This document shows positions 35,204 to 54,521 of a stretch of 64,000 nucleotides of DNA, piece after piece. The DNA lies in the NCBI GenBank assembly GCA_902764875.1, contig CACWXP010000013.1, forward strand, positions 27,182-91,181, written 5' to 3'. Positions within the stretch are counted from its first letter, which is position 1. Every line of letters starts with the position of its first letter. The DNA is from an uncultured Eubacteriales bacterium. GTDB taxonomy: Bacteria > Bacillota > Clostridia > Christensenellales > Aristaeellaceae. The notes below the pieces were generated by a model. That model was not told where the DNA came from. It saw nothing but the letters and a program-made list of their open reading frames with translations, and did not search any database. A program made the position numbers and the translations under genes.

Positions 35204-35215
35204 GGAGGCACAAAG

Positions 35216-37719: not shown

Positions 37720-37732
37720 GGGAGGAAAGAAA

Positions 37733-38947
37733 ATGCCGAAAGAAAAAAGCATAGTGAAGCCGCTGCTCGCCGCCGTTTTCCTCCTCATTCTCGCCGTCTT
37801 TTTCGTCAAAACCGAGGCATACAAACAATTCGGCCCGCTCTTTGAAACCCTGAAACGAGCCGTTCCCCAAAGCAATTCCGCCGCGAAAACCGATCCCGCC
37901 CCGACCCTCGGCGAAATCGAGGAAAACTTCACCTCGAATCTCTGGAAAAGAACCGACATGATCGATCTTACCGGCGCCATGGCGAAAGCCATCCATATGC
38001 AGGGTTATTACAGCGATCAGGATATTTTCATCATGGACGACGGAACCATCCTCGACAGCTCCGCAAAAACCACCACCGATTACGAAGTGGAGCAAACCGT
38101 GGCCCTCCGTGATTTCCTGGCGGAAAGGGAAATCCCCCTGCTCTATGTAAACGAGCCGACCAAGTATATCGATGACGCGTTTTTCACCAACGCCTTCGCC
38201 CGGGAGACCTGGAGCAACCGCAACATGGACAAATTCCTCTCCCGCATCCGGCAGGCCGGCGTCAACGCCATCGACCTCCGGGACAACATCCGGGAAGAAA
38301 ACCTCAACGTCCTGGACCTCTTCTATCGCACCGACCACCACTGGACCGTCCCCGCCGGCCTCTGGGCGTCGCGGATCATGGCGGAGGGCCTGAACCGATA
38401 CTGCGGCTACAATATTGACCTCTCCCTTTTCGATCCGGAAAACTTTGAGGCGAAGGAATGGAAATCCTGCTGGCTCGGCGAGCAGGGGAGGAAAGCCGGT
38501 AAAACCTATGTGGGCCTGGACGACTACACCGAGCTGAAGCCGAAGTTCGAAACAGATTATACCTTCAAGGGCATCGGCCGCTTCTACGACGGTCCCTTCG
38601 ATCTCTTCATCGACGAGTGGGTTTTTGATCCCGACATCGATGTCTATGAAAACAACTCCTGGCACCATGCCTATAAACAGATCAACTGCATCAATAAAAA
38701 TGCGGAAAAAGGCAAACTCCTGATCCTCGGCGATTCCTATGAGGCCGTGACCCTTTGCTTCCTCTCCCTCGGCATCCGCGAGGTGGATTCCCTCATCCGC
38801 CGCGACCACGACGAATCCTTCGATCTCCGGAGTTACATCGTCGAAAACGGCTACGACGCCGTCCTGATAGCCTACGCCCAGTTCATGGTCGGCGGCCACG
38901 ACGACCCCACCTCCTCCAGCTACAGAATGTTCACGTTCCAAAATTGA
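37733..38947 (+). CDS. DHHW-motif SGNH/AlgX-like protein, MBOAT partner
   Basis: 404 residues with an N-terminal signal anchor (LLAAVFLLILAVFFV). The extracytoplasmic domain has the diagnostic YRTDHHWTVPAGLWAS and a C-terminal nucleophile motif LLILGDSYEA. DHHW proteins are the Gram-positive counterparts of AlgX and act with MBOAT partners on surface polymers. ATG 37733 has GGGAGG seven bases upstream; an earlier ATG at 37706 overlaps the MBOAT gene and lacks a site. Confidence 0.87.
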   Translation: MPKEKSIVKPLLAAVFLLILAVFFVKTEAYKQFGPLFETLKRAVPQSNSAAKTDPAPTLGEIEENFTSNLWKRTDMIDLTGAMAKAIHMQGYYSDQDIFIMDDGTILDSSAKTTTDYEVEQTVALRDFLAEREIPLLYVNEPTKYIDDAFFTNAFARETWSNRNMDKFLSRIRQAGVNAIDLRDNIREENLNVLDLFYRTDHHWTVPAGLWASRIMAEGLNRYCGYNIDLSLFDPENFEAKEWKSCWLGEQGRKAGKTYVGLDDYTELKPKFETDYTFKGIGRFYDGPFDLFIDEWVFDPDIDVYENNSWHHAYKQINCINKNAEKGKLLILGDSYEAVTLCFLSLGIREVDSLIRRDHDESFDLRSYIVENGYDAVLIAYAQFMVGGHDDPTSSSYRMFTFQN

Positions 38948-38972
38948 CTTCCTATATATAAGCGGTTATAAT
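38944..38972 (+). promoter_or_regulatory. promoter with TATATATA spacer, fourth MBOAT pair
   Basis: TTGACT (38944-38949), 17 bp containing CCTATATATAAG, TATAAT (38967-38972). Confidence 0.8.
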
Positions 38973-38983
38973 CTGTTTCAGCC

Positions 38984-39022
38984 ACTACGGGGGCGCAGGC
39001 CATAGCCCTGCTTCTTCCGGCC
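38984..39022 (+). repeat. family 2 repeat, decayed
   Basis: GGGGGCGCAGGCC, CCCTGCTTCTTCCGGCCCACTTT: left arm and right end of the cruciform. A second GGGCGCAGGCC follows near 39045. The copy lies in the 5' leader of the MBOAT mRNA. Confidence 0.55.
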
Positions 39023-39102
39023 CACTTTCGAACCGGTGAACCGAAGGGCGCAGGCCCAAAGCGATTGCCAAGAACCCAGAACACTAAAGGAGAAATGCAC
39101 CG

Positions 39103-40593
39103 ATGGTATTCAGTTCTTCGATTTTTCTGCTGTTGTTTCTGCCGGCGGTCTATCTCCTGAATCTCCTCATCACAAAGCTTTCGAAAAACACCACCGCGGC
39201 CTCTAATGTCTTCCTTCTGCTGGCCAGCCTTGTTTTCTACGCCTGGGGCGAGCCGATCCTGGTCCTTCTGATGATCGGCTCGATCCTCCTGAACTGGTTC
39301 TGCGGCCTGATGATCGCAAAAACGCAGGCCAATGCGCCAATGGGGACAGACCCCATTGGTGCACGGGGAAACCGGATCCAACGCAGACTACAGTACGGCT
39401 TGCACCCCATTGGCGCGAAACTCTGGTTCATCCTCGCAATCCTCGGCGACCTGGCCGCCCTCGGGTATTACAAATACGCCGGCTTCCTGGTGAAAACCCT
39501 GAACGGCCTCCTGGGCCGCGAAGTCCTGACGCCCCTGGAGATCGCCCTCCCCATCGGCATCTCCTTCTTCACCTTCCAAGCCATTTCCTATGTGGTCGAT
39601 GTCTGGCGCGGCACCACCGGGGCCTCAAAAAATCCCATCAACACGGCCCTCTATATCTCTTTTTTCCCCCAGCTCATCGCCGGCCCCATCGTCAAATACC
39701 GGGATGTCAACCGCCAGATTGAATCAAGAACCCTCACCCCGGTCCGCCTGGCGGACGGTTTCCGCCGCTTCACCTATGGCCTGGGCAAAAAGGTCATGAT
39801 CGCCAACGTTCTCGGCCTGTGTGTCGACAAAATCTACAGCTATAACATCGGCGTCATCGACCCGCTGGCCGCCTGGATCGCCGCCCTCGCCTACGCTTTC
39901 CAAATCTACTACGACTTCTCCGGCTATTCGGATATGGCCATCGGCCTGGGCAAAATGTTCGGCTTCGACTATCTCGAAAACTTCAACTACCCTTACCTTT
40001 CGAAATCTGTCTCCGAATTCTGGCGCCGTTGGCATATCTCCCTCGGAACCTGGTTCCGGGAATATGTCTATATCCCTCTGGGCGGAAACCGCAAGGGGAA
40101 GCTCCGGACCTATCTCAACCTGGCCGTCGTCTTCCTCCTCACCGGCCTGTGGCACGGGGCGGATGTCGCCTTCATCCTTTGGGGCGCCTGGCACGGTTTC
40201 TGGGTCATCCTCGAGCGCCTCTGCCTGCGAAAATTCCTGGATAAACACAAAATCCTCGGCTGGGTGTATTGCTTCCTGGTCGTGCTCCTGGGCTGGGTTC
40301 TCTTCCGCGCAGACGACACGGTGACGGGCGTGACCCTCCTGGCCCGGATGATCCGCCCCTGGCATTATCAGATCGCCGTCAACTGGGCGGAATACGTGGA
40401 GCCGAAAACCATCGCGGTCTTTGTCGCCGCGGTCCTGGGCGCCGGCGTGCTGAAGCGGCTTTGCCCGGAAAAACTCCGAAAAAAATGGCTCGGCTCCGTG
40501 CCGGAGGCGGTGTTCTGCGTGCTCCTGCTGATCCTCTGCCTCGCGGCGATCGCCGGCGACACCTACAATCCGTTCATATATTTCCAGTTCTGA
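39103..40593 (+). CDS. MBOAT-family O-acyltransferase (fourth pair), with in-frame repeat insertion
   Basis: 496 residues, closest paralogue of 20817-22262. It has LPIGISFFTFQAISYVVDV, FFPQLIAGPIVKY, YYDFSGYSDMAIG, FWRRWHISLGTWFREYVY and TGLWHGA. The loop between LLNWFCGLMIAK and WFILAILGDLAALGYYKYAGF is about 30 residues longer than in 36319-37719. The extra DNA (39333 to ~39416) is a family 1 palindrome, a reversed family 2 piece, and a further CCCCATTGGCGC half-arm. The frame is kept. Its partner AlgX-like gene starts 10 bp downstream. Confidence 0.93.
   Translation: MVFSSSIFLLLFLPAVYLLNLLITKLSKNTTAASNVFLLLASLVFYAWGEPILVLLMIGSILLNWFCGLMIAKTQANAPMGTDPIGARGNRIQRRLQYGLHPIGAKLWFILAILGDLAALGYYKYAGFLVKTLNGLLGREVLTPLEIALPIGISFFTFQAISYVVDVWRGTTGASKNPINTALYISFFPQLIAGPIVKYRDVNRQIESRTLTPVRLADGFRRFTYGLGKKVMIANVLGLCVDKIYSYNIGVIDPLAAWIAALAYAFQIYYDFSGYSDMAIGLGKMFGFDYLENFNYPYLSKSVSEFWRRWHISLGTWFREYVYIPLGGNRKGKLRTYLNLAVVFLLTGLWHGADVAFILWGAWHGFWVILERLCLRKFLDKHKILGWVYCFLVVLLGWVLFRADDTVTGVTLLARMIRPWHYQIAVNWAEYVEPKTIAVFVAAVLGAGVLKRLCPEKLRKKWLGSVPEAVFCVLLLILCLAAIAGDTYNPFIYFQF
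39333..39363. repeat. 31-nt palindromic repeat (family 1), in frame inside MBOAT gene
   Basis: Arms TGCGCCAATGGGG and CCCCATTGGTGCA with loop ACAGA. Confidence 0.9.
39364..39416 (-). repeat. reversed family 2 fragment plus half of a family 1 arm
   Basis: GGATCCAACGCAGACTACAG is near the reverse complement of CTGTAGTGCGGCCAGCGTTG at 61977. CCCCATTGGCGCG follows. Confidence 0.5.
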
Positions 40594-40603
40594 TGAGGTA
40601 CAC

Positions 40604-41722
40604 ATGAAAACGCTGAAAACAAGCCAAAAAATCTTCGTCGCGGCCTTCGCGGTCGTGCTCTGCGGCGCGTGGGTGCTCTGGCTCCTCCTGGGCCGCTTTA
40701 CCGACAACGAAAACTACGAAAACCGTCAGCTGGCGGAAATGCCGCAGTGGACGGCAGAAACCGCCGAGCAGTTCCCACGGGATTTCGAATCGTTTTTCAA
40801 CGACCGCCTGCCCTTCCGGAACCAGATGATCACCCTCAACAGCGCCGTGGATTATTATGTTTTCGGCCGCTCCGCCCATTATCGCACGACTGTCGGAAAG
40901 GAAGGCTGGCTGTTCTACAGCGATTCCGCCGACGGCAACCCGATCGCCTGCTACCAGGGGACAAACCTCCTGCCCGAGGAGGAGCTGGAGGCCATCGCTG
41001 CCAACTGCCTCCGCCAGCGGGACCGCCTCGCCGCCCGGGGCTGCGAGTTCGTTATCCTCATCGCCCCGAACAAAAACCGCGTGTATGCCGAATATATGCC
41101 GGGTGTCTTCGGCCCCCCGGCGGAAACGTACCGCGCCCTGCAAATCGTGAACTACCTCCGCGAAAACACGGACCTGCGCGTGGTCTACCCTTATGAAGAC
41201 CTGATGGCTGCCAAACCGTCCGTTGCCGAAAATCTGTATTACAAAACGGATACCCATTGGAACCTCCTCGGGGGATATGTGGGCGCCCGGGCGCTGCTTC
41301 GGGAGCTGGGGATCGAAATGCCGTCGCTGACAGATCCCTCCCTGAGAATCACCCAAAACGGCTTCAAAAAGGGCGATCTGGCCAAAAACCTGGGGCTCAC
41401 GGCCCAGCTGATGTCCCAGGATCCGGAGTACGCCGTCGAAGGCTACGATCCCCACGGGGCGGAGTTGACGGAGGAAACGGATACGTCCTATCGCTATAAG
41501 GCGGAAAACGCGGATCCCCGCAGGCTCTTCGTCGTTCGGGATTCCTTCGTCCTCTCGATGATGCCCCATCTCTCCACCCAGTTCAATGAAAGCTATTACA
41601 AACATTTCATGTACTATATGTACGATGATTTCGAAGCTTTTCAGCCGGACATCCTCGTCTACGAAACCGTCGAGCGCTTCGCGGCCAACCTCAAAGACTT
41701 CAGTGTAGAGCGCGGCCGATAA
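40604..41722 (+). CDS. AlgX/AlgJ-like SGNH hydrolase-fold protein (paralogue)
   Basis: 372 residues, same plan as 19547-20668. There is one N-terminal membrane helix, then NDRLPFRNQMITLNSAVDYY, EGWLFY, FVILIAPNKNRVYAEYMP, the YKTDTHWN catalytic region and VVRDSFVLSMM. Paired with the MBOAT gene just upstream (10 bp). The two MBOAT/AlgX-like pairs at either end of the locus look like an old duplication with inverted orientation. Confidence 0.88.
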   Translation: MKTLKTSQKIFVAAFAVVLCGAWVLWLLLGRFTDNENYENRQLAEMPQWTAETAEQFPRDFESFFNDRLPFRNQMITLNSAVDYYVFGRSAHYRTTVGKEGWLFYSDSADGNPIACYQGTNLLPEEELEAIAANCLRQRDRLAARGCEFVILIAPNKNRVYAEYMPGVFGPPAETYRALQIVNYLRENTDLRVVYPYEDLMAAKPSVAENLYYKTDTHWNLLGGYVGARALLRELGIEMPSLTDPSLRITQNGFKKGDLAKNLGLTAQLMSQDPEYAVEGYDPHGAELTEETDTSYRYKAENADPRRLFVVRDSFVLSMMPHLSTQFNESYYKHFMYYMYDDFEAFQPDILVYETVERFAANLKDFSVERGR

Positions 41723-41748
41723 ACCCCATGCTTCCTCCGGCCCATTTC

Positions 41749-41777
41749 TTGCACTTGACTGAAGAATCGAATATAAT
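41749..41777 (+). promoter_or_regulatory. promoter of the helicase module (copy 1)
   Basis: TTGCAC (41749-41754), 17 bp, TATAAT (41772-41777). The -10 region GAATATAATACGGATAAAG is repeated before 43721. Confidence 0.65.
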
Positions 41778-41788
41778 ACGGATAAAGG

Positions 41789-42070
41789 TTGAATCAGATT
41801 CAGCATATCGGCGAAGGCATCTCTGCGGTGCGGAAAGGAGAGATGTGGCATGCGATCGTTGATTATCTGGGGCAGCAGTATATTGTCGGGCTCAAGATCT
41901 GGCGCGGCGATCGCTGTCATAAAGCCGGAGAAGAGCAGATTGTCGAGTATCTGAATGACCGGCATCTGGATGTGGGCTATATGCTGAGTTTTAACTTTAA
42001 TCAGAAGAAGGATCCGGGCGTAAAGCGGGTGGAGATCGACGGAAAGATCCTGTACGAAGGAACCGTGTGA
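41789..42070 (+). pseudogene. C-terminal remnant of a PD-(D/E)XK nuclease-domain protein
   Basis: About 93 codons readable from a TTG. The sequence DYLGQQYIVGLKIWRGD ... GYMLSFNFNQKK matches the C-terminal nuclease-like domain of clostridial AAA-ATPase proteins (PF08011-type). The ATPase part is absent. The catalytic E-x-K reads G-L-K, so the Glu is lost. It ends 15 bp before the helicase gene, in the same transcript. Probably a decayed fragment; a small functional protein cannot be excluded. Confidence 0.55.
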
Positions 42071-42085
42071 CATGGAGGGAACCTT

Positions 42086-43624
42086 ATGAAACTATACGCC
42101 TGGCAGCAGGAGTGCCTGAAGGCCTGGGAGGAAAACGGCTGCCGGGGGATTGTGAACGTGGTCACGGGCGCCGGGAAGACGGTGCTGGCGCTGGAGGCGA
42201 TTCGGAGGTTTCGAAAGAAGCATGAAAACGCCCGGATCCGGATTGTGGTGCCGACGATTCCTCTGGCGCAGCAGTGGCAGTCTGCCCTGCTGCAGGAGGC
42301 GGAAAGCGAGGCAGACCGGCCGGGTTTTTTCGGCGCGGGCCGGCGGGACAGCCAGGACCGGCCGCTGATGATCTATATCATCAATTCCGCCCGGGATCAT
42401 CTGCCCGGGCATATGGAGCAGGCCTTCGCCCTGGGGCAGCCGGTGCTGCTTGTCTGCGATGAATGCCATCACTATCAGAGCAGGGAAAACCGGCGGATCT
42501 TTGATTTCCGGATTCCGCCGTTTTTTTCTCCGGAGCAATACGCCTGCCTGGGCCTGTCGGCCACGCCCTTTGAAACCGCTCACGATGAGGTGTTGCACAA
42601 AGAACTTGGAGAGGAAATATACCGGTACGGCTTTGCCGAGGCTTCCGCGGCCGGAATTGTTTCACAATTCACGGTCATGGAAACGGCGGCTTCCTTTCTT
42701 CCGGAGGAAAGAAGGATTTATCAGGAGCTGTCCCGGGAGCTGATCATGCTCTGGAGCAGGCTTCTGCGGCGGTATCCATACCTGAAAGGCATGGAGGAAA
42801 AAGCCTTTCTGAAAGAACTGAACCGCCTGGCCCGGGAAGCCGGCATGGATCCGTCAAATCCGGCGGTCAGCTTTCTTTTGAAAACCTGGGAGCGGAAGAA
42901 GGTCAGCAATCTGGCGCTGACCCGGATTCAGTGCGCGTATTCTATCTTAAAACAGCTGCCGGAGGACGCCCGGGCCATCCTTTTTTGCGAACGGATTGTC
43001 CAGGCAAGGGATTTGCAGGCGCTGCTGCGGCGGAAGATGGGGAACATCGCGATGCTTTATCACTCGGAAATGTCCCGGGAAGCGCGGAGCCGGAGCCTGC
43101 AGGCCTTCCGGGAAAAACAGGTGCGCGTGCTGATCTGCTGCCGGGCGCTGGACGAGGGAGTGGATGTGCCGGATGCCGGCGTGGGCATTGTGCTGAGCAG
43201 TTCCTCGGTATCCCGGCAGCGGATTCAGCGTCTGGGGCGCATCCTGCGCAAGGCGCCGGGGAAAACTGCCGCCTGCCTGTACTATATTTATCTTCCGGAA
43301 TCCACGGACGACTGTGTTTATTTGCCCGGGCTGCAGGGATTTCCCAGGGCCGGCCTCCGATACGATGCGGAGGAGGATGCCTTTTCCAACGAGCTGTATG
43401 AATATGCCGCCCGGGATCTGCTCCGGGAGGCGGAGAGCCTGACGCCGGCGCAGCGGCAGGAACTGCGCCGCTGTCTGCTGGACGGCCTGGCCCGGGCGGA
43501 CTACCTGCTCCCGCCGGATGCATTCCGGGCCGCAAAAGAGGAAACGGTTCACGAGCGCAATTACCGGAAAACCATGAAGAAAATGAGCCTGCTGTTTCAC
43601 CGGGATGCGGCCGTGAAAATATAA
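42086..43624 (+). CDS. SF2 DEAD/DEAH-box helicase, first gene of a BrxD-associated module
   Basis: 512 residues, compact. Motif Q/I: YAWQQECLKAWEENGC and VVTGAGKTVLAL. Motif II: LLVCDECHHYQ. Motif III: GLSATPF. Helicase C-terminal motifs: DEGVDVPDAG (V) and RIQRLGRILRKAPGK (VI). No added nuclease or methylase domain is seen. It is the ResIII/XPB-like type found in phage-defence islands. GGAGGGAACCTT lies before ATG 42086. It precedes an unknown gene and two P-loop ATPases related to BrxD. Confidence 0.9.
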   Translation: MKLYAWQQECLKAWEENGCRGIVNVVTGAGKTVLALEAIRRFRKKHENARIRIVVPTIPLAQQWQSALLQEAESEADRPGFFGAGRRDSQDRPLMIYIINSARDHLPGHMEQAFALGQPVLLVCDECHHYQSRENRRIFDFRIPPFFSPEQYACLGLSATPFETAHDEVLHKELGEEIYRYGFAEASAAGIVSQFTVMETAASFLPEERRIYQELSRELIMLWSRLLRRYPYLKGMEEKAFLKELNRLAREAGMDPSNPAVSFLLKTWERKKVSNLALTRIQCAYSILKQLPEDARAILFCERIVQARDLQALLRRKMGNIAMLYHSEMSREARSRSLQAFREKQVRVLICCRALDEGVDVPDAGVGIVLSSSSVSRQRIQRLGRILRKAPGKTAACLYYIYLPESTDDCVYLPGLQGFPRAGLRYDAEEDAFSNELYEYAARDLLREAESLTPAQRQELRRCLLDGLARADYLLPPDAFRAAKEETVHERNYRKTMKKMSLLFHRDAAVKI

Positions 43625-43659
43625 GGGAAATCCGGGGAATAAAAAAGCAAAACCAATAC

Positions 43660-43688
43660 TTGTCTGAGGCGGAAGAATCGAATATAAT
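43660..43688 (+). promoter_or_regulatory. promoter inside the module (copy 2)
   Basis: TTGTCT (43660-43665), 17 bp, TATAAT (43683-43688). GAAGAATCGAATATAAT-CGGATAAAG is shared with copy 1 at 41761. Confidence 0.65.
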
Positions 43689-43720
43689 TCGGATAAAGTC
43701 TATGACCGGGAGGAAAGAAA

Positions 43721-44512
43721 ATGGCGAATTATGAAGCTTTACTGGGAGAGCTCTCTCCGCTGTCGAAAAATGTGAAGGACGCCGCGAACACGGCGGTGCG
43801 GTTGCAGAAGGCCATTCAGAAGAACACGGAAACCGGAAACCTGACGGAGGTTAAGAAAAGCCTTGCCGCGCTGGGGGAGGCGATCGCTCTGCTTCAGGAG
43901 CGGACCGACGCGCTTCAGGACGCGGTGGACGCCTTTGACGAGCAGGAATATTTTGTCAGCGGCGATTTCACGCAGCAGCTGCTGGAAGCCTGCGCGGAGA
44001 AAAAGGTAGACGTGAAGGGCGAGAAGGGCGTATACGAGATGTTCCCCTACAAGGTTCGGATCCTGGGGGACAGCGAGCACCCTGCCGAAGTGTATGTGGA
44101 CCGGAAGAAGGTCGCGAGCTACCGGCCGGAATATGTGGCGGAAACGATCCGCCAGGGTCAGATCCGGCTGAACAAGGCAACCTTTAACCCCTCTTCTTTT
44201 ATGGAAGAACTGGCGGCGGCCTATGAGATCACCTGTCTCCGGAACGGGGCCCGGATTGGTTCCACCCAGGCCCTGGGCAAGATTTATAAGAATCTGGCGC
44301 TGATGGCCCGCGCCCGGAAGGAATACGACATGCAGGCTTTTGCCTTCGACCTTTCCAGACTCTTTGAGGCCGGGACGGAAGCATGGAAGACGAAGGACGG
44401 CGCGCGGTACGACTTCGGCACCAGCCGGGACGGCAAAACCGGCATCCGGGTGCTGAGCCGAACGGGCGTGGAATCCTTTATCAGCACGCTTCGAATGATG
44501 AATGACGATTGA
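43721..44512 (+). CDS. unknown protein of the helicase/BrxD-like module
   Basis: 263 residues, no family recognised. Residues ~1-85 are predicted helical with heptad-like Leu/Ala spacing (coiled coil). The middle holds a compact alpha/beta domain (YEMFPYKVRILGDSEHPAEV, YVDRKKVASYRPEYVAETIR). The C-terminal ~100 residues are helical (LALMARARKEYDMQAFAFDLSR). It has no membrane segment, signal peptide or obvious catalytic motif. It sits between the helicase and two ATPases with its own promoter and a GGGAGG site. It is likely an adaptor or DNA-binding partner, which is inference only. Confidence 0.75.
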   Translation: MANYEALLGELSPLSKNVKDAANTAVRLQKAIQKNTETGNLTEVKKSLAALGEAIALLQERTDALQDAVDAFDEQEYFVSGDFTQQLLEACAEKKVDVKGEKGVYEMFPYKVRILGDSEHPAEVYVDRKKVASYRPEYVAETIRQGQIRLNKATFNPSSFMEELAAAYEITCLRNGARIGSTQALGKIYKNLALMARARKEYDMQAFAFDLSRLFEAGTEAWKTKDGARYDFGTSRDGKTGIRVLSRTGVESFISTLRMMNDD

Positions 44513-44529
44513 TCCGGAGGGCAAAAAAC

Positions 44530-45765
44530 ATGGCGGAGCTGAATCTGAGCAGGCAGGAAGGGATTTCCCGGCTTTTGCAGGGAAAAGCGCCCGGGAATGC
44601 GGAACTGCTGCGGGAAACGACGGTCGGTCTGGATTCCCTGACGGAGTTCCTGGGGCGTCAGTATCTGGAAACCTATATTCCTGCTGGCGGAAGCAAGATC
44701 AAATTTGTAACGGGTCTTCAGGGCAGCGGAAAAACCTGCTTCGCGGAAACGATGCTGCTCGGGGCGGCGGCCGCGGACTATCTGACGGTCTCGATTTCCG
44801 CGAAGGAGATCTGGCTGCACGATTTCCGGGGTGTTTATCTGGAAATCCTGCGCCAGTGCGGGCTCGAAGGGATTTTGCGGGGCTGCGCGAATCAGATCAT
44901 CCGCGGAATGGGATACGATCCGGACGCCATTCCAAAAGGGAAAACCCTGATGGATGTGCTGTCCGAAAAGGGAGAGGGTGATGCCTTTTCCAAGGGAGAG
45001 ATCCGTGAGGCGTTGCGCAGGAGTTTTACCAGGAACCCCTTGCTGGACAATACTTTTGCGGTGTGCTGCTCGCTGCTGACGGGCGATCTGTTGGGCTATC
45101 CGGTGCTGGAAAACACCAGCCGGGAGCTGATTTATGCCTGGATGCACGGGGACCCGGCCGTGAAGGCTTCCCAGATGAAGGCTATCGGGATGTCCCCGGT
45201 CCGGGTTTCGAAGTATACGGCCCGGAACCTGCTTCGCTCCCTGTGCGAGGTCATTCATCTGAGCGGCCGACCGGGGTTGCTGGTGGTAATCGACGATCTG
45301 GAGCAGCTGATCAGCAAAAACACGGACGGACAGATCCGCTACACAAAAGGCCGCCGGGAAGACGCTTATGAAAGCATCCGGCAGCTGATCGACGATATCG
45401 ACAGCATGCGCTATGTGCTGTTCCTGTTCTGCATGGATCGGGAGATGGCGGAGGATGAAAGCCTCGGAATCAAGAGCTATCAGGCCCTATGGATGCGGAT
45501 GCAGAATGAGGTGATCAGTCCGCGCTTCAACCGGTTCGCGGATATCGTGGATCTGGACCGCTACGGCGATGAGTCCTACGCGGAAGATCAGATGATGGAA
45601 ATGTCCCGGAAGCTGGCGGACATTCTGAACCGGGAGGGCATAGAGGCTCAGCCGCTGAACCGGGAGAAGGCTGCGGAAATGAAGGCCCGGGCGGTGTTCG
45701 GGAAGCTCGGCATTCCCTATCTGGTCAACCGGATGACGGTGGAAGGAGAGAAGGATCATGGCTGA
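44530..45765 (+). CDS. BrxD-like P-loop ATPase A
   Basis: 411 residues. Walker A FVTGLQGSGKTCFAET is near residue 70. Walker B LLVVIDDLEQLI is near 265, with a preceding helical region (SPVRVSKYTARNLLRSLCEVI) like that of DUF2791/BrxD ATPases of BREX systems. A sensor-like region LFCMDREMAEDESL follows. ATG 44530 has GGAGG nine bases upstream, overlapping nothing; an in-frame ATT/ATG at 44509 would overlap the previous gene. Its stop overlaps the start of ATPase B by 8 nt. Divergent from classic BrxD, so the family call is moderate. Confidence 0.75.
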   Translation: MAELNLSRQEGISRLLQGKAPGNAELLRETTVGLDSLTEFLGRQYLETYIPAGGSKIKFVTGLQGSGKTCFAETMLLGAAAADYLTVSISAKEIWLHDFRGVYLEILRQCGLEGILRGCANQIIRGMGYDPDAIPKGKTLMDVLSEKGEGDAFSKGEIREALRRSFTRNPLLDNTFAVCCSLLTGDLLGYPVLENTSRELIYAWMHGDPAVKASQMKAIGMSPVRVSKYTARNLLRSLCEVIHLSGRPGLLVVIDDLEQLISKNTDGQIRYTKGRREDAYESIRQLIDDIDSMRYVLFLFCMDREMAEDESLGIKSYQALWMRMQNEVISPRFNRFADIVDLDRYGDESYAEDQMMEMSRKLADILNREGIEAQPLNREKAAEMKARAVFGKLGIPYLVNRMTVEGEKDHG

Positions 45766-46954
45766 TTTTTACGCGATGCATGTGATCGAGGCGCTGCGTT
45801 CCGGCGTTCCTTCCCGTGCGGTCGGGGCCTATTTTTCCGAAGCTCGGCCGGGCATGATGAAGAAGATTGAAGGCCGGATGGAGGCGGTGCGCGCCGGTGG
45901 ACCCTCCGACGGCATGATTTTCACCGGCCATTACGGCGAGGGGAAAACGCATTTGCTGAATACGGTGTTCAGCGCCGCAACGCAGAACAATATGGCGGTT
46001 TCCTATGTGGCGCTGGGCAAGGAAACGCCCATGAGCAATCTGCCGGTTTTGTATCAGAAAATCATTGCCAACACCTATTTGCCGGGGGCGGCGCAGCCGG
46101 GATTTCGCCAGAAGATGGAGGAACTGACGCCCGGAAGCGGCGTGACCGGGGATCTGCTGGCGTTTTCGGCAAAGGAGCTGGAGACGGACAAACTGTATTA
46201 TCTCCTGCGGGCGATGCTCGGAACTCAGGAGGAAGAGGAACGGACGTCTTTCCTGGGCGATCTGGAGGGCGACTTCGTTTCCAATGATGTCATCAAGCGC
46301 TGCTATCGCCGGGTGCAGGGCCAGGTGGCAAAGTTCAACCAGAATTTCGTGAAAACCCGCCATATCGGGGATTATTTTTGCTTCATGAGCCATTTTTTCC
46401 GCCGGATCGGGCTGGATGGATGGGTGATCCTTTTTGACGAAGCGGAACTGATCGGCCGGATGGGGAAGAAGACCCGTCTGAAATCCTATCGGGAGATGCA
46501 GCGGTTCCTCTCGCCCGGGGATCAGCTGGAAAGTGTTTTCTCGCTGTTCGCGCTCAGCTCTTCCTACGCGGAGGACGTGATCGACAAGAAACATGAAATG
46601 GAGAATGCGGAGGCGGAATATGCGGAGGATCCTGCCGGCTTGAAGGCGATCAGGGCAACGCTGAACGCGATGCTGAACGCGCCGGAGCTGGCCAAGCTGA
46701 CTCCGGCGGAAACCCTGCGGATTCTTGAAAGCATTCAGGAATTCCACGGGAAGGCATATGAATGGCATCCGCAGGTGTCGCCGGAGACAATCTATGCCGA
46801 GACGGAAGCGGGCGGCTATTTGCTGCGGACAAAAATCCGCGCCGCAATCGAGTATTTTGACCAGCTGTATCAGTACGGGGAAGCCGGGAAGACCAAAATC
46901 ACCGAACTCGGAAAGGAATCCTTCGAAGAGGACGAAACCCCGGAACTGCCGTGA
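45758..46954 (+). CDS. BrxD-like (DUF2791 family) P-loop ATPase B
   Basis: 398 residues. The start VIEALRSGVPSRAVGAYF matches the family's N-terminal signature. Walker A is FTGHYGEGKTHLLNTVF (~55). VSYVALGKETPMSNLPVLYQ and the Walker B WVILFDEAELIG (~226) follow as in BrxD. BrxD is the ATPase of BREX type 2-like phage defence, where it accompanies a large helicase. Here no PglX, PglZ or PglW homologue is present. ATGGCTGA overlap with ATPase A implies coupled synthesis, as for subunits of one complex. Confidence 0.85.
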   Translation: MADFYAMHVIEALRSGVPSRAVGAYFSEARPGMMKKIEGRMEAVRAGGPSDGMIFTGHYGEGKTHLLNTVFSAATQNNMAVSYVALGKETPMSNLPVLYQKIIANTYLPGAAQPGFRQKMEELTPGSGVTGDLLAFSAKELETDKLYYLLRAMLGTQEEEERTSFLGDLEGDFVSNDVIKRCYRRVQGQVAKFNQNFVKTRHIGDYFCFMSHFFRRIGLDGWVILFDEAELIGRMGKKTRLKSYREMQRFLSPGDQLESVFSLFALSSSYAEDVIDKKHEMENAEAEYAEDPAGLKAIRATLNAMLNAPELAKLTPAETLRILESIQEFHGKAYEWHPQVSPETIYAETEAGGYLLRTKIRAAIEYFDQLYQYGEAGKTKITELGKESFEEDETPELP

Positions 46955-46973
46955 AACCGGACCAAACGCAAAC

Positions 46974-47038
46974 GGACCGGAGGGCGCAGGCCACAGTGCG
47001 GCCTGCGTTAACTGCAGACCAAGACCCTGCATCTTCCG
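46974..47038 (+). repeat. cruciform repeat (family 2), partly decayed
   Basis: GGACC, then CGCAGGC (46985-46991) paired with GCCTGCG (47001-47007), then GCAGACC without its full partner and a CTTCCGCCCCGTTCC right end. About 45 bp match the 50743-50811 copy closely. Confidence 0.75.
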
Positions 47039-47123
47039 CCCCGTTCCTTGTACAAAAATAATACGGATTGAGTTGAAATCTGACCCGTCAGCGATAGCGG
47101 TGAAAAAGAAAGGACGAAAGAAA

Positions 47124-48236
47124 ATGAAAATCGGTTGCGTAAAGGAAATCAAGAACAATGAGTACCGGGTCGGCCTGACGCCGGACAACGTGAAGGCCTA
47201 TGTGGCCGCTGGCCACCATGTCTATATGGAAAAGGGCGCGGGCGTCGGCTCCGGCTTTGCGGACACGGAATATGTGGAAGCCGGCGCAAGCCTCATCGAC
47301 AACGCGGCGGACGTCTGGCACCTGGTGGATATGATGATCAAGGTCAAGGAGCCCCTGGAGGAGGAGTACCCCCTCTTCTACGACGGCCTGATTCTCTATA
47401 CCTACCTCCACCTCGCGGCGGACAAGGAGCAGATGGACGCCCTGCTCGCCGGCAAGGTGAAGGCCGTGGCCTATGAAACCATCCAGGAGACGGACGGCTC
47501 CCTGCCCTGTCTGGCCCCCATGTCCCAGATCGCGGGCCGCTTGTCCATCCAGGAAGGCGCCAAGTATCTGGAAAAGAAATTCGGCGGTGCCGGCATGCTG
47601 CTGGCCGGCGTGCCCGGAACCCCCAAGGCGAATGTGGTCATCCTGGGCGGCGGAACGGTCGGCATGAACGCCTGTAAGATCGCCGTCGGCATGGGCGCCA
47701 ATGTCACGATTCTCGATGTGAACCTCAAGCGTCTCGAGCAGCTGGACAATTTGTTCGGCGCCCATATCCAGACCCTGGTCAGCACCGACAGCAACATCGA
47801 GCGCGTCGTGAAGGACGCGGATCTGGTCATCGGCTCCGTGCTGATCCCCGGCGGCTCCACGCCGAAGCTCTTCAAAAAGAAATATCTGCCCGAAATGAAG
47901 GACGGCGCGGTCTTTGTGGATGTGGCTATCGACCAGGGCGGCTGCGGCGAAAGCAGCCACGTCACCACCCATGACGATCCCGTCTATGTCGAGCAGGGCG
48001 TCGTCCATTACTGCGTGGGCAACATGCCCGGTGCCGTCCCGCGCACTAGCACCATCGCCCTCACGAACGCGACCCTCCGCTACGGCCTGCAGATCGCGGA
48101 AGCCGGCCTCGAGGAAGCCGCGAAGAAGAGCAGCGTCATCGCCTCCGGCGTCAACTGCTACCTCGGAAAGCTGACGAACGAAAACGTGGCCAAAGCCCAC
48201 GGCTATGAATACGCAAACCTGAACGAACTGATCTGA
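47124..48236 (+). CDS. ald: alanine dehydrogenase
   Basis: 370 residues, the family's length. The N-terminus MKIGCVKEIKNNEYRVGLTP carries the substrate-binding Arg. Further marks are MMIKVKEPLEEEYP (catalytic Lys), YTYLHLA (His), the NAD-binding VVILGGGTVGMNAC, and GSVLIPGGSTPKLF with DVAIDQGGCGE. It catalyses reversible NAD-dependent deamination of L-alanine to pyruvate. ATG 47124 has AAAGGAC upstream. Much longer upstream starts in this frame run through the ATPase gene and are rejected. It follows a family 2 repeat and ends before a family 3 hairpin. Confidence 0.96.
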   Translation: MKIGCVKEIKNNEYRVGLTPDNVKAYVAAGHHVYMEKGAGVGSGFADTEYVEAGASLIDNAADVWHLVDMMIKVKEPLEEEYPLFYDGLILYTYLHLAADKEQMDALLAGKVKAVAYETIQETDGSLPCLAPMSQIAGRLSIQEGAKYLEKKFGGAGMLLAGVPGTPKANVVILGGGTVGMNACKIAVGMGANVTILDVNLKRLEQLDNLFGAHIQTLVSTDSNIERVVKDADLVIGSVLIPGGSTPKLFKKKYLPEMKDGAVFVDVAIDQGGCGESSHVTTHDDPVYVEQGVVHYCVGNMPGAVPRTSTIALTNATLRYGLQIAEAGLEEAAKKSSVIASGVNCYLGKLTNENVAKAHGYEYANLNELI

Positions 48237-48241
48237 AAAAT

Positions 48242-48273
48242 GGCGCCACGGGGGCGAAAGCTCCGGTGGCGCC
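48242..48273. repeat. family 3 hairpin, variant
   Basis: GGCGCCAC (48242-48249) pairs with GTGGCGCC (48266-48273) just past the ald stop; it may act as its terminator. The remaining gap to 48522 is AT-rich and shows no gene. Confidence 0.6.
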
Positions 48274-48522
48274 TTCGTTGGATTCAATTTCTGCTGGCGC
48301 ATGTGTTAAAACCCGGCATATTCCCGAAATGTGCAGGATAAGCGGAAGAATTCGAAGATCATGGCATATAGGGTGTTGATTCGGAAAATCATCCACAATG
48401 TTTTACATTTTTGGAAAGAAGAAGCATGGGAAAAGTATAAACTTTACAAAAGATATTGAATTTTATAAAGAAATGTGGCAAAATCAATACGAACTTTCCA
48501 AAAATGGAAAGGAAGTGTAAAG

Positions 48523-49839
48523 ATGAAATACCATGATGTGCGAACAGCCGGCTTTGAAATGACACCTTCAGAGAAACGGGAACTGTATGAAAATAGATAT
48601 AACAGTGAAGCGGCGATTCGTTTGGGTTTTCCGATAAACGGGTATGACGCTTTTATTCTCCTGAACGGAGAGTTGGTGTCATTGGTTTCTTCCATTTATC
48701 AAATGGACAAAAAGCTTTCTTTACTGATCAGTCGGATTCCTCCTGATGCAATGGATCAGTTTGTCACAAACTCGCTGATTGATGAAATCCAGCAGAGCAA
48801 CGAAGTAGAGAATGTCAACAGCACAAGAAAAGAGATTAAGGATGCATATACGACGCTGGCGAGCGGTTCACGCAATAAACGATTCGAGGGAATGGTCAGG
48901 AAATATGCGCTCCTTCGGATGAATGAAGATATTCCGTTGGCAACTTGCAGCGATATTCGAAATTTGTATAATGATTTTATACTTGATGAGGTGGTAAGGG
49001 AAAATCCGGATGACGCTCCGGATGGTGTGATTTTCCGAAAAAATCCGGTTCATGTTTCCGAATCGCATGGAGAGGATATTCATGACGGTCTTTTCCCGGA
49101 AACGGCCATTGTCAAGGCAATGGATGCCGCATTGACCGTTTTGAACAGCGAGACGATGGATGATACGATCCGGGCGGCATTGTTTCACTATTTCTTCGGG
49201 TATATTCATCCATTTTATAACGGAAACGGAAGAATGTCCCGGTTTATCAGCAGCTACGTGCTGTCGCGGCAGTTTTCCAATGCGGCGTGTCTGCGGACAT
49301 CCTATGTGATCAAGCAGCATAGAAGCAGGTATTATGAATTGTTCCGGCATGCGAACGATAAGCAAAATATGGGAGAGTTGACGGAATTTGTTATCGGATA
49401 TCTGCTGTTCTTCCGGGAGGCTGTCGAGGATACTTATCAGATCCTGAATGAAAAATATTTGCTGTATCAGAAATATGAGAAGACGTTGAAGGCGTGGCTG
49501 AACAAACGGATTCCTGGACTGACAACCGGGCAGGTTTCCTGTTTTGTTTATTTGCTGCAATTGGAATTGTTTGGCGAATCGGATGCAGATATACAAAAGG
49601 TTGCCTCTTTGATGGAATGCGGACGGGTAACAGCAAGAAAGATTCTGTCTGAAGCGAATGATATTGTTTATTTTTCAAAAGACGGGAGAAAACAGATATG
49701 GCATGTAAGGCTGGATGTTGAAAACACTGAAGATGTAGTACGCGCCAATGGGGCAAAGGCTCCGGTGGAGCCTGCACCAATGGGGACAGACCCCATTGGC
49801 GCAGTGCAAGGTGATCTTCTGAATGGAAAGATATGTTGA
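48523..49839 (+). CDS. Fic domain protein with N-terminal inhibitory helix and repeat-derived tail
   Basis: 438 residues. The Fic core HPFYNGNGRMSR starts at residue 229 with the catalytic His and phosphate-binding loop intact. SNEVEN at residues 92-97 fits the (S/T)xxxE(G/N) auto-inhibitory motif of class II Fic enzymes, which transfer AMP to proteins. A C-terminal winged-helix-like segment (QKVASLMECGRVTARKIL) follows. The last ~30 residues, from ANGAKAPVEPAPMGTDPIGA, are encoded by family 3 and family 1 palindromes. ATG 48523 follows AAAGGAAG. Lower GC than flanking genes suggests acquisition. Confidence 0.9.
   Translation: MKYHDVRTAGFEMTPSEKRELYENRYNSEAAIRLGFPINGYDAFILLNGELVSLVSSIYQMDKKLSLLISRIPPDAMDQFVTNSLIDEIQQSNEVENVNSTRKEIKDAYTTLASGSRNKRFEGMVRKYALLRMNEDIPLATCSDIRNLYNDFILDEVVRENPDDAPDGVIFRKNPVHVSESHGEDIHDGLFPETAIVKAMDAALTVLNSETMDDTIRAALFHYFFGYIHPFYNGNGRMSRFISSYVLSRQFSNAACLRTSYVIKQHRSRYYELFRHANDKQNMGELTEFVIGYLLFFREAVEDTYQILNEKYLLYQKYEKTLKAWLNKRIPGLTTGQVSCFVYLLQLELFGESDADIQKVASLMECGRVTARKILSEANDIVYFSKDGRKQIWHVRLDVENTEDVVRANGAKAPVEPAPMGTDPIGAVQGDLLNGKIC
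49742..49772. repeat. family 3 hairpin inside the fic 3' end
   Basis: GCGCCAATGGGG followed by AGGCTCCGGTGGAGCCT: a family 1 half-arm plus a family 3 hairpin. Confidence 0.6.
49773..49803. repeat. 31-nt palindromic repeat (family 1), in frame at fic 3' end
   Basis: Arms TGCACCAATGGGG and CCCCATTGGCGCA with loop ACAGA. Confidence 0.9.
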
Positions 49840-49881
49840 AAGAGAGGGTGCAGACATAGACATAGAAGGGAGGCAGGCCAA

Positions 49882-50739
49882 ATGGATTATTTTCCGTCGA
49901 CACCGATGATCGTTGACTCAAACCGTATCCTGTATACAGCGTCCCCCTTTGCCCGCAGTTCGCTCCTGCATCTCCAGGAAATCGGCGAGCTGAAGGCCCT
50001 CCAGGCGCATACCTCCAGCCGCGAAAATCTGCAGTCCTATCTCTTTTTCACGGTGCTGAAGGGCGCTGGCAGCTTATCATACAGAGGCAGAAACTACGAT
50101 CTTCACGAAGGCAGCTGTATCTTTATTGACTGCCGCGAGCCCTACAGCCACACGACGGATACGGATCTATGGACCATCTGCTGGATCCATTTCGACGGCC
50201 CGTCCATGGCCTCGGTTTATGCGAAATACTGTGAGCGGGGCGGCCGGCCGGTTTTTGCGCCCGAAAAACCGGGGCACGCCCGGGAACTCTGGACCGCCCT
50301 GATGGCCACCGCGAAGTCTTCGGATTACATGCGGGATATGAAGATCAACGCGACCCTTGCGGAACTGCTGGTCTCCGTGATGGCGGAATCCTGGCATCCG
50401 GAGGAAAAGCCCCTTGCGTCCAAGCGGGCGTCCGTGGCGAAGGTCCGGGAGTATATAGATCAGCATTATGCCGAACAGATCACCCTGGATTCCCTGGCCG
50501 CAAAGTTCTATATCAATAAGTACTATCTCTCAAAATCCTTCAAAAGGCAGTTCGGCCAGAATATCTCCGCCTATCTGCAAAGCGTAAGAATCACTAAAGC
50601 AAAACAGCTTCTCCGTTTCACCGATAAAACACTCGAAGAAATCGGCGAAGCCGTGGGCATCACCCCCGCCCGCTATTTCTCCGAGGTCTTCCGCGCAGTG
50701 GAAGGCCTGCCCCCAACCCAATACCGCAAACAATGGTAA
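49882..50739 (+). CDS. AraC-family transcriptional regulator with cupin domain
   Basis: 285 residues. The N-terminal AraC-binding cupin has GRNYDLHEGSCIFIDCREPYSH and WTICWIHFDG. The C-terminal HTH pair is QITLDSLAAKFYINKYYLSKSFKRQFG and TLEEIGEAVGITPARYFSEVF. GGGAGG is eight bases before the ATG. It converges on manC, with the cruciform repeat between them. It may control the GDP-fucose genes, where a 21-bp-spaced direct repeat lies between gmd and the next gene, but this is inference. Confidence 0.9.
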   Translation: MDYFPSTPMIVDSNRILYTASPFARSSLLHLQEIGELKALQAHTSSRENLQSYLFFTVLKGAGSLSYRGRNYDLHEGSCIFIDCREPYSHTTDTDLWTICWIHFDGPSMASVYAKYCERGGRPVFAPEKPGHARELWTALMATAKSSDYMRDMKINATLAELLVSVMAESWHPEEKPLASKRASVAKVREYIDQHYAEQITLDSLAAKFYINKYYLSKSFKRQFGQNISAYLQSVRITKAKQLLRFTDKTLEEIGEAVGITPARYFSEVFRAVEGLPPTQYRKQW

Positions 50740-50742
50740 AAC

Positions 50743-50811
50743 GGACCGGAGGGCGCAGGCTACAGTGCGGCCTGCGTTATTCGCAGACCAAAGGTCTGCT
50801 TCTTTTGGTCC
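50743..50811. repeat. best-preserved cruciform repeat (family 2), possible bidirectional terminator
   Basis: Outer stem GGACC (50743-50747)/GGTCC (50807-50811). Hairpin 1 is CGCAGGC (50754-50760)/GCCTGCG (50770-50776). Hairpin 2 is GCAGACC (50783-50789)-AAA-GGTCTGC (50793-50799). It sits between the convergent AraC and manC genes and could end both transcripts. Confidence 0.8.
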
Positions 50812-50849
50812 ATTTTCCGGTTCGGTGAATCAATAAGCCTTTATTCTCG

Positions 50850-52199
50850 TTACTTGATTAAATCCGGCCAAGGATGTTTCTGCTTGTCAGCAACAGAAAT
50901 CTCCGCGCCAAGCTGCACCTCCGTCAGCTGCAGCCCTTCCGCCCCCGCAATCACGGTATGCTTCTGCCCGGCCTGCATCCGGATCACGTCCCCGACGCCG
51001 ATCTCCCGAACCTCCCCGTCAACAACAGCCTGCCCGTTTCCGCTGATCACGGTCCAGATCTCGTCCCGGTGCTCGTGGCTGTGATAGTTCATCCTGTGAT
51101 TTGGGTTCAGCGTGACCTTCACGGTCAGGCTGTTTTTTTCAACGTCCAGCACCCGATAGCTGCCCCAGCTCTTCTCGGCAAACATGACCTGCTGATCAAT
51201 GGCGTCGACGAAGGGCTTGATGTAGCTGCTCTGCTCTTTGTCGGAAACCAGAATCCCCTCCGGCGAGGCCGCGATCACGGCGTCCCGGATCCCCATGGCC
51301 AGAATCGGCACCCCCAGTTCGTTGATGATGTGGAGATTCCGGCAGGTGTCGTTCATCTGCGCATTGCCGAGGATATTCTCCTCCATGGCCTCCGTCAGCG
51401 TGTTCCACGTGCCCAGATCCTTCCAGGTCCCGGAATACCGCAAAACCTCCAGCGATGTTTCCTGCTCCACAACTGCATAGTCGAAAGAAATCTTCTTCAG
51501 CTCCGCGTAATGGTCGAATAAATACCGGTAATCGGAAGATCCCAGCAGCTCCCGGCTCTTTTCCAGCACATAGCGCAGCCTGTAAGCAAATACGCCGCCG
51601 TTCCACAGGGCGCCGCCAGCGATGTATTCCTCCGCCTTTTCTTTGGAAGGCTTTTCGGTGAAAGTATATGCCGGTTTCCCGTCCGTGGGCGCGGAGGATC
51701 CCGCCGCGCCGGCAGCAGGCTTGATGTATCCGTATTTTTCGGAAGGATAGGTGGGCTCGATGCCCATCAGCACCAGGTTCTTCCGTCCCTTTCGGGCTTC
51801 CTCGCAAAGATCCCGCACGCATTCGAAATACGCCTCGTCCACATAGGGATCCACCGGGCACACCACCACGGCCTCGTCGGCGCCCACCCCCCGCACGTCG
51901 TGCAGGTAAGCCGTCGCCAGGGCGATGGCCGGAAAGGTGTCCCGCCGGCAGGGCTCGATGGAAATCCCCACGTCTTCGCCCAGCTGGTTGTGAATCGCGG
52001 AGACCTGGGTTTTCGCCGTGGCGATGGTCACCGTCGCCTCCGGATCCACGGCCCGGATCTGGCGGTAAACCCGCTGAACCATGGATTCGTAGGAACCGTC
52101 CGCCCTGGGAAAGATCTGGATGAACTGCTTCGAGCGGATGTCGTTGGAAAGCGGCCACAGGCGTTTGCCGGAGCCGCCGGAGAGAAGAATAATGTTCAT
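50850..52199 (-). CDS. manC: mannose-1-phosphate guanylyltransferase/mannose-6-phosphate isomerase
   Basis: 449 residues, bifunctional type. The nucleotidyltransferase domain starts IILLSGGSGKRLWPLSND and has IRSKQF. The C-terminal cupin isomerase domain has NYHSHEHRDEIWTVISG and GDVIRMQAGQKHT. It makes GDP-mannose, the substrate of Gmd. Last gene of the gmd-fcl-manC run, separated from fcl by a 137-bp gap with a family 1 repeat. AAAGG precedes the ATG. Confidence 0.95.
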   Translation of the reverse strand: MNIILLSGGSGKRLWPLSNDIRSKQFIQIFPRADGSYESMVQRVYRQIRAVDPEATVTIATAKTQVSAIHNQLGEDVGISIEPCRRDTFPAIALATAYLHDVRGVGADEAVVVCPVDPYVDEAYFECVRDLCEEARKGRKNLVLMGIEPTYPSEKYGYIKPAAGAAGSSAPTDGKPAYTFTEKPSKEKAEEYIAGGALWNGGVFAYRLRYVLEKSRELLGSSDYRYLFDHYAELKKISFDYAVVEQETSLEVLRYSGTWKDLGTWNTLTEAMEENILGNAQMNDTCRNLHIINELGVPILAMGIRDAVIAASPEGILVSDKEQSSYIKPFVDAIDQQVMFAEKSWGSYRVLDVEKNSLTVKVTLNPNHRMNYHSHEHRDEIWTVISGNGQAVVDGEVREIGVGDVIRMQAGQKHTVIAGAEGLQLTEVQLGAEISVADKQKHPWPDLIK

Positions 52200-52250
52200 A
52201 TAATACCTTTCTGTGGACAGATTTGGATCACGGGGGTAGAGTCTGTTTTA

Positions 52251-52281
52251 TGCGCCACGGGGGACAGACCCCATTGGCGCA
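52251..52281. repeat. 31-nt palindromic repeat (family 1), between fcl and manC
   Basis: Arms TGCGCCACGGGGG and CCCCATTGGCGCA with loop ACAGA. More CAATGGCGCA-like sequence follows near 52305. Confidence 0.85.
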
Positions 52282-52336
52282 GCACCAGGTGCACCGCAGA
52301 CCACAATGGCGCAAGCCCGGATGTCCCCGCACTCCC

Positions 52337-53308: not shown

Positions 53309-53327
53309 CTTGTTCTCAATCTCTCCC

Positions 53328-54410: not shown

Positions 54411-54521
54411 GAAGAAGCCCTCCCTGAAATCGTGAGTCTTTGGAAGCACAGGAAAAAAAGATTGCCATTTTGATGTGCTGTAAAGGCATTATTGCATAGA
54501 TAAAAAAAGCAAAAAACCCAT

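Follow-up and report, generated by a model that had tools for sequence, protein, structure and literature searches.

The described systems closest to the locus reported here combine an ATPase with a helicase. In one study, BrxD was proposed as the loader of the helicase BrxHI in type 2 bacteriophage exclusion (BREX) (PMC12839542), and Shango is described as a TerB-like protein, an ATPase and a helicase (PMC10250203). PbeABCD halts viral replication without cutting viral DNA according to one source (PMC6459918), a view that is disputed in another, where cleavage is proposed instead (PMC10853773). Here we describe a four-gene cassette in a Clostridia-type genome, located at positions 42086–46954 of the forward strand of a 64,000-nucleotide stretch of contig CACWXP010000013.1 (hereafter the window). 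The cassette encodes, in this order, a helicase, a coiled-coil protein (open reading frame 2, ORF2), ATPase A and ATPase B (Table 1). All four frames are open, lie on one strand and are found where the original prediction had placed them. ORF2 and the two ATPases are referred to as the trio, which together with the helicase makes up the cassette. We consider it moderately probable that the cassette represents a widespread three-gene core in its helicase-bearing form, and that this core would act as a DNA-bound AAA+ platform loading a swappable motor against invading DNA. We infer defence as the purpose, the formation of a complex, the loading and its target from the sequences.

A conserved trio with exchangeable partners

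The minimal four-gene system of the original prediction holds as far as the four genes form a conserved unit, but the trio is the more ancient of the two units, with the helicase as one among several partners that can be exchanged. Relatives of ORF2 (E 1e-15 to 1e-82) are encoded in 16 further genomes of a phylum sample, which gave 17 loci, all with the frames ordered ORF2-A-B; a window-type helicase is present in only four of the 17. Searches in the classes around three such genomes gave hits in 42 of 151, in 29 of 113 and in 4 of 20 genomes, with the central genomes counted. We examined 84 distant loci (Aulosira excluded; some genomes contribute two loci), in which the ORF2 family recurs. 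The trio is complete in 76 of them, with order and strand identical in all 76. Several of the incomplete loci (L242, L247, L248, L249, L304, L307, L308 and L309) are cut by contig ends.

A gene was counted as a partner if it lay within 700 bases of the trio, or within 5 kb for cas genes, and partner types were assigned with profiles built up from a single verified member or a few. A DNA motor or a cas gene accompanies 57 of the 76 complete distant trios. The partner is BrxL in 21 trios (one with a Cas3-like gene as well), a superfamily 1 (SF1) helicase of the AAA_11/AAA_12 type in 15, an XPB-like helicase in five, SNF2 in five, a DEAD helicase together with a third BrxD-type ATPase in five, a DEAD helicase alone in one, and cas1, with or without cas3, in five. 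Representative partners match the PADLOC models PbeA (3.3e-57), MkoA (1.4e-66), SngC (1.6e-167), BrxHI (6.7e-125), ZorD (1.4e-128) and BrxL (3e-101), all of which we take to come from phage-tested systems. Because the trio is a fixed set that stands beside unrelated helicases of known virus-defence systems, it may be a shared loading platform. One SF1 partner (L220:9561–12644; PADLOC MkoA, 1.4e-66) carries a phospholipase D (PLD)-like nuclease domain, which scores under the cut-off (1.4e-4), and a topoisomerase zinc ribbon.

Trios linked to clustered regularly interspaced short palindromic repeats (CRISPR) lie in type I cas operons of different subtypes. The operon of L146 contains cas1, cas3', csc2 and a 31-copy array; that of L147 contains cas1, cas3 and cst2; L148 has cas3 and a csa2-like cas7 that scores under its cut-off; L286 has cas1, cas2, cas4 and a borderline csc2; and L287 has cas1 and cas3. 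Small DUF4282 membrane proteins accompany CRISPR-linked trios in L286 (Pfam, 1.9e-23), and similar frames were seen by eye in L146 and L148. On a plasmid of Desulfomonile tiedjei (Thermodesulfobacteriota), the gene order is helix-turn-helix (HTH) gene, ORF2, A, B, helicase. On a plasmid of Aulosira laxa (Cyanobacteriota), ORF2-A-B-helicase follows a pglZ-brxD-helicase run, the products of which are 45.6% (annotated BREX-6 PglZ), 71% (BrxD) and 64% (helicase) identical to those of Pseudanabaena galeata. One run of genes thus contains both a true BrxD and the A/B pair. In L238, L240, L244, L245 and L246, a helicase and a third BrxD-type ATPase precede the trio; in L246, the ATPase matches PF10923 with 4e-115 and the helicase is SngC/BrxHI-like. 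TerB was not found in the three upstream proteins scanned at the L238-type loci.

Proteins and gene layout of the cassette

The proposed hidden Markov model search recovered both ATPases with PF10923 and the helicase with ResIII. The original prediction had ascribed a BrxD-like signature to ATPase B. The protein does belong to PF10923 (67.9 bits; Pfam gathering cut-off 22.2), but ATPase A matches the family more strongly (99.9 bits), and neither is a BrxD, since their scores against the BrxD equivalog NF033438 (88.0 bits for A and 42.3 for B) lie below its cut-off of 350 bits. PF10923 has no match in the genome of the window besides the cassette locus. The predicted structure of ATPase A (mean predicted local distance difference test score, pLDDT, 90.6) gave only generic AAA+/P-loop-type matches in Foldseek, the best with E 9.3e-4. 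In a tree of 77 rows, calculated by a quick method and without bootstrap, ATPase B forms one side of a branch (34 rows; Shimodaira–Hasegawa-like approximate likelihood-ratio test support 97). ATPase A also forms one side of a branch, unsupported as a whole; 33 of its 34 rows are grouped with support 100, and the protein of D. tiedjei falls outside that group. BrxD and the third ATPases sit apart from both the A and B clades, and the sub-clades by partner type are similar between A and B. ATPases A and B are two ancient clades, neither of which is BrxD.

The tree bears on a rather unlikely alternative, in which the cassette is a stand-alone anti-phage system resembling Shango or BREX-2: its ATPases would act like BrxD, ORF2 would replace TerB, and the pairings would have arisen repeatedly and independently, with no platform. 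Both window ATPases match the PADLOC models SngB (1.2e-11 and 4.9e-8) and BrxD (3.2e-25 and 1.3e-11), and the make-up of Shango, a TerB-like protein with an ATPase and a helicase (PMC10250203), is similar. However, the A and B clades are separate from BrxD, apart from the outlying Desulfomonile ATPase A, and the order of the trio is constant in 76 of 76 loci, which together argue for one inherited unit rather than repeated pairing. Moreover, a BrxD-type ATPase coexists beside the trio in Aulosira and in the five L238-type loci.

The nucleotide-binding site of ATPase B is preserved in all aligned rows that have letters at its motifs (Table 1). The P-loop of ATPase A is kept in 104 of 114 rows; of the other ten, three are cut short, that of L134 is altered, and six have no P-loop anywhere. 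These six are the CRISPR-linked L146–L149 and the SNF2-linked L152–L153; the SNF2-linked ATPase A of L233 retains its P-loop. The constant preservation of the B site and the loss of the A P-loop in two lineages suggest that B is an obligatory ATP switch, and that A may be able to serve as a scaffold.

Searches with ORF2 gave no PADLOC match, and E was never below 0.02 in Pfam, NCBIfam or PHROGs. The structure prediction suggested for it yielded an AlphaFold2 model (65 sequences; mean pLDDT 91.8), but a comparison with the PDB gave no fold match with E below 1 (best E 1.1). Two long helices, of residues 4–38 and 41–71, form an N-terminal coiled coil, and the C-terminal part is composed of mixed helices and strands; our guess, based on the sequence in which these elements follow each other, is that the latter form a winged helix. 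The best viral model, M9MU71, was not taken as a fold match: its E of 3.1e-3 and Foldseek probability of 1.00 are accompanied by a root-mean-square deviation of 14.3 and template-modelling scores of 0.26 and 0.40. Only P136, L164, Y202 and G249 are invariant over 30 diverse rows, so that no catalytic set is visible, and ORF2 is taken to be an adaptor.

The superfamily 2 (SF2) helicase of 512 residues named in the original prediction was confirmed, and its motifs are invariant across 11 aligned rows. Its best PADLOC match is PbeA (4e-59), which covers only positions 252–635 of the 672 in the profile; SngC is not among the best 25 of its 54 PADLOC matches. The closest solved chain to the 11-row helicase profile is archaeal XPB (6p4f, 1.5e-44). 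The score against the NCBIfam XPB equivalog (71.3 bits) does not reach the cut-off of 610, and that against the Dnd restriction enzyme model TIGR04095 is higher (146.6 bits) and also below its cut-off of 600. No nuclease domain was recognised on the window helicase, which begins at the helicase part.

Table 1 Features of the cassette and its surroundings, in positions of the window.
Feature	Position	Strand	Remarks
Sigma-A-like promoter (TTGCAC-N17-TATAAT), 5' of helicase	41749–41777	+	Exact pattern search; consensus match only
Frame directly 5' of helicase	41789–42070		93 residues; TTG start
Helicase (XPB/PbeA-like SF2)	42086–43624	+	512 residues; ResIII 3.3e-23, Helicase_C 1.7e-16
Helicase Walker A (TGAGKT)	42164–42181	+	T27, G28, G30, K31 and T32 invariant in 11 aligned rows
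Helicase motif II (DECH)	42458–42469	+	D125, E126, C127 and H128 invariant in 11 aligned rows
Sigma-A-like promoter (TTGTCT-N17-TATAAT), 5' of trio	43660–43688	+	Pattern search; consensus match only
ORF2 (trio protein 1)	43721–44512	+	263 residues; family without a name
ATPase A (trio protein 2, BrxC/D-type AAA+)	44530–45765	+	PF10923 1.9e-28; alternative TTG start at 44509
ATPase A Walker A (GLQGSGKT)	44713–44736	+	Alignment
ATPase A Walker B (LVVIDDLE)	45280–45303	+	Alignment
ATPase B (trio protein 3, BrxC/D-type AAA+)	45758–46954	+	PF10923 1e-18
ATPase B Walker A (GHYGEGKT)	45926–45949	+	GK[ST] in 116 of 116 aligned B rows
ATPase B Walker B (VILFDEAE)	46424–46447	+	DE in 115 of 115 rows with letters; one row gapped
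Fic protein	48475–49839		Related to SoFic (PADLOC 1.7e-28)

Of the overlapping coding ends in the original prediction, the one between ATPases A and B is real and 8 bases long. An overlap between ORF2 and ATPase A is not expected, because the most likely start of ATPase A is ATG 44530, which has GGAGGG just 5' of it and is also the start in the closest relative, L039; the alternative TTG start would make the two genes overlap. The two sigma-A-like sites have in common a 14-base motif, GAATCGAATATAAT, which comprises the end of the spacer and the -10 element; an exact pattern search found it just twice in the window, the second copy at 43675. The helicase is on the strand opposite to the trio in 54 of the 70 helicase-bearing loci among the best 80 of 292 relatives (see below), and in six divergent loci of close relatives that were inspected, loose sigma-A-like matches face both directions. 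The short frame directly 5' of the helicase shows similarity to the C-terminal part of a PD-(D/E)XK GxxExxY-type protein (PDDEXK_3, 6.8e-4, below cut-off; TIGR04256, 0.011) and is possibly a relic or a truncated gene.

Distribution and surroundings of the cassette

The neighbourhood survey put forward with the original prediction showed that the four genes occur together beyond chance, in 10 of the 10 first loci retrieved from relatives and in most of 80 further loci. With an alignment of ATPase B, 292 relatives were found in 84,980 species genomes, and the best 80 of them (the Clostridia loci) were examined: ATPase B is present in 80, ATPase A in 78, ORF2 in 75 and the helicase in 70. Of the ten without a helicase, five (L073, L115, L124, L138 and L139) are at contig ends. 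ORF2 is absent in L111 and L130 and broken in L125. The L125 locus (7173–8803) appears as a decaying copy, with ORF2 split into three short frames, the helicase shortened, and A and B open.

The cassette is accessory. A PF10923 match was found in 17 of 100 genomes, and the twin ATPases are present in nine of the 45 genomes of the genus and absent from the other 36, the genome of the window being counted in both cases. The ORF2 profile and the helicase profile (>750 bits) mark exactly the same nine genomes; two further genomes have only weak helicase matches (<95 bits). Many of the 45 genomes are incomplete, and among the 13 more complete ones, four carry the cassette. In the order sample, the ORF2 profile matched three of 396 genomes; in the phylum sample, it matched 17 of 398, again with the window's genome counted. 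Because only nine of the 45 genus genomes carry it, the cassette is not a set of housekeeping genes of the lineage, which was one of the two outcomes that would have spoken against the original prediction; the other, that the genes never occur together elsewhere, was not seen either. The window ATPase B shares 71% identity with copies from records that carry the label Lachnospiraceae (L067, L069 and L089), whereas its identity to copies from its own genus is 69–88% (four), 59% (two) and 46% (two); this pattern points to horizontal transfer or mixed ancestry.

These data make it quite unlikely that the cassette is a DNA repair or replication-restart module, in which an ORC-like loader would bring an XPB-like helicase to damaged DNA for the benefit of the cell. 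Archaeal XPB is the closest solved structure to the helicase profile, and ORC/Cdc6-type ATPases load helicases at origins. However, the cassette is restricted to a minority of the genus, of its more complete genomes and of the phylum sample; the identities of ATPase B are transfer-like, though four other genus copies are close; and cas and BREX genes are found with distant trios.

It is extremely improbable that the genes serve to replicate or maintain an integrated mobile element, as initiator-like ATPases with a helicase. Two trios lie on plasmids, but at the limits used, these two are the only ones among 72,556 plasmid records. No relative of ATPase B was found in 50,697 phage records, and none of ATPase B or ORF2 in two scans of viral contigs. 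Furthermore, no flank family is shared by the majority of the 80 Clostridia loci, integrases and relaxases not having been specifically sought. In a comparison for empty sites, the other flank of the window was absent from all 29 short flanks and all four larger regions of relatives, so no clean empty site or insertion site was defined; the alanine dehydrogenase flank gene is present in 30 of the 45 genus genomes.

The scanned flank genes of the window encode polysaccharide, alanine dehydrogenase, Fic and AraC proteins, and the cassette itself is flanked by acyltransferase (MBOAT, AlgX-like) and GDP-mannose genes identified with Pfam. As judged by eye, most loci of the host genus and a close genus (window 34934–54449 and L032–L040) have the cassette within or close to surface-polysaccharide genes, and this vicinity is weaker among neighbours in other families. 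It is very unlikely that the cassette is a module acting on the surface-polysaccharide clusters of the host genus, for example by remodelling or regulating variable loci. The genes that flank it in the window, the sugar-nucleotide or glycan genes seen by eye near most of the relatives' loci viewed, and the eight epimerase-family and six Polysacc_synt_2 proteins among the 140 proteins nearest to the 80 Clostridia loci are consistent with such a role. However, the commonest glycan-type family accounts for just eight of the 140 neighbours, and even the most frequent flank family, that of ATP-binding cassette (ABC) transporter ATPases, is seen at no more than 17 of the 80 loci. Distant trios adjoin cas, BrxL and helicase genes, and capsule loci are general insertion hot spots.

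The Fic gene lies just 3' of the alanine dehydrogenase gene in a stretch of lower guanine-cytosine (GC) content (0.466). The GC content of positions 56001–64000 is 0.41–0.49, compared with mostly 0.55–0.62 in the first 48 kb, and this region is possibly another acquired stretch.

Proposed mechanism and comparison with known systems

According to the mechanism that we propose for the platform, the three trio proteins most likely form a single AAA+ complex on DNA. ORF2 would be a coiled-coil adaptor, which probably contacts DNA. ATPase B would be the obligatory ATP switch and ATPase A its structural or regulatory partner, a division of labour like that of ORC/Cdc6. By some feature, the platform may recognise DNA that invades or replicates abnormally, and it may load or activate a separately encoded DNA motor. 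In the window, the motor would be the XPB/PbeA-type helicase. Since no nuclease was recognised on it, invading DNA would likely be unwound or blocked, and any cutting would fall to host enzymes. The proposed loading of BrxHI by BrxD and the disputed non-cutting halt by PbeABCD bear on a cassette of this kind, in which no nuclease was recognised. The idea of the original prediction that two ATPases load the helicase is strengthened because the ATPase pair and ORF2 adjoin helicases of unrelated families.

Several observations weigh against this mechanism. No defence island was seen around the cassette: the 140 nearest neighbours of the 80 Clostridia loci include no recurrent defence family (at most two of 140 per PADLOC family at 1e-15), so that the helicase-bearing form lies outside defence islands. 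Five of these loci (L076, L078, L081, L095 and L130) have no helicase though they are not at contig ends. Among the complete distant trios, three of the 76 have only an HTH gene beside them, and 16 have no recognised partner; seven of the 16 are followed by less than 1.4 kb of sequence, and nine have more (L157, L158, L224, L225, L231, L232 and L235–L237). Partner-profile matches number 54 in 351 kb near trios and 11 in 440 kb away from them, an about six-fold enrichment that is an upper figure, biased upward because the profiles were seeded with trio-adjacent genes; such a match lies within 2.8 kb in 53 of the 76 loci. Several distant loci come from one genome or from related genomes. The contact of ORF2 with DNA is a guess, as no convincing fold match was found for the protein. 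In the partnerless locus L157 (3901–10000), the trio is followed by genes for a 437-residue protein of no known kind, an Hsp70-like protein, a 545-residue protein likewise of no known kind and a metallo-beta-lactamase-fold protein.

More tentatively, at a level that we put slightly short of an even chance, the trio could be a general portable immunity platform that is plugged into unrelated motors and type I CRISPR-Cas in at least three phyla, and could provide a common activation step across these systems. If the platform exists, one shared, swappable set of proteins would perform both sensing and loading, which would help to explain why helicases with obscure triggers recur in anti-phage systems. 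The role of BrxD-type ATPases in BREX would become testable in a minimal four-gene cassette, and the predicted division of labour, with B as the switch and A as the scaffold, could be addressed by simple mutants. ORF2, with no match in the libraries searched, would be a marker for finding further systems.

Plain membership of BREX, Shango or Pbe was considered for the cassette and dropped, since the defining features of these systems are lacking. Like the BrxD-BrxHI pair of BREX types 2 and 6, the cassette has a BrxC/D-type AAA+ ATPase beside an SF2 helicase; unlike it, the cassette encodes two ATPases from clades of their own and an extra coiled-coil protein, and its helicase is XPB/PbeA-like rather than BrxHI-like. 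The separation from BREX in the original prediction agrees with our scan, in which neither PglX nor PglZ was recognised among the genes flanking the cassette; part of the window's frames was scanned, and the whole genome was not searched for the two. With Shango (SngA, which is TerB-like, SngB and SngC), the cassette shares its small size and the combination of an adaptor-like protein, a BrxD-like ATPase and a helicase, and the distant L238-type trios have a Shango-like feature in the adjoining SngC-like helicase and third BrxD-type ATPase. The cassette differs from Shango in having two ATPases and a helicase of a different family, and ORF2 matches neither TerB nor SngA in Pfam and PADLOC. The window helicase contains the helicase core of PbeA, as in the PbeABCD or CxC ABC-ATPase systems, but it does not have the HKD/PLD nuclease, and ORF2, A and B match no Pbe model in PADLOC, including those of PbeC, the CxC ABC ATPase, and the DndE-like PbeD.

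Distant partners of the trio are related to the helicase or AAA+ effectors of Mokosh, Zorya, BREX-1 (BrxL) and type I CRISPR-Cas (Cas3), and to our knowledge the trio has not been described in any of these systems. The trio was not found described in the open-licence PubMed Central papers searched, and as the common core of many contexts it is undescribed in that literature. A further likeness is to a tandem Orc/CDC6 pair associated with a KAP NTPase, in which two Orc/CDC6-type ATPases are encoded in one operon and one of them is possibly inactive (PMC10853773). The twin ATPases share this arrangement. In the account given there, however, the second Orc/CDC6 copy keeps Walker A and loses Walker B, whereas here ATPase A loses Walker A in some lineages and ATPase B in none examined. 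The parts of the cassette are of known kinds, and their four-gene combination is a new form of helicase-plus-BrxD-type systems.

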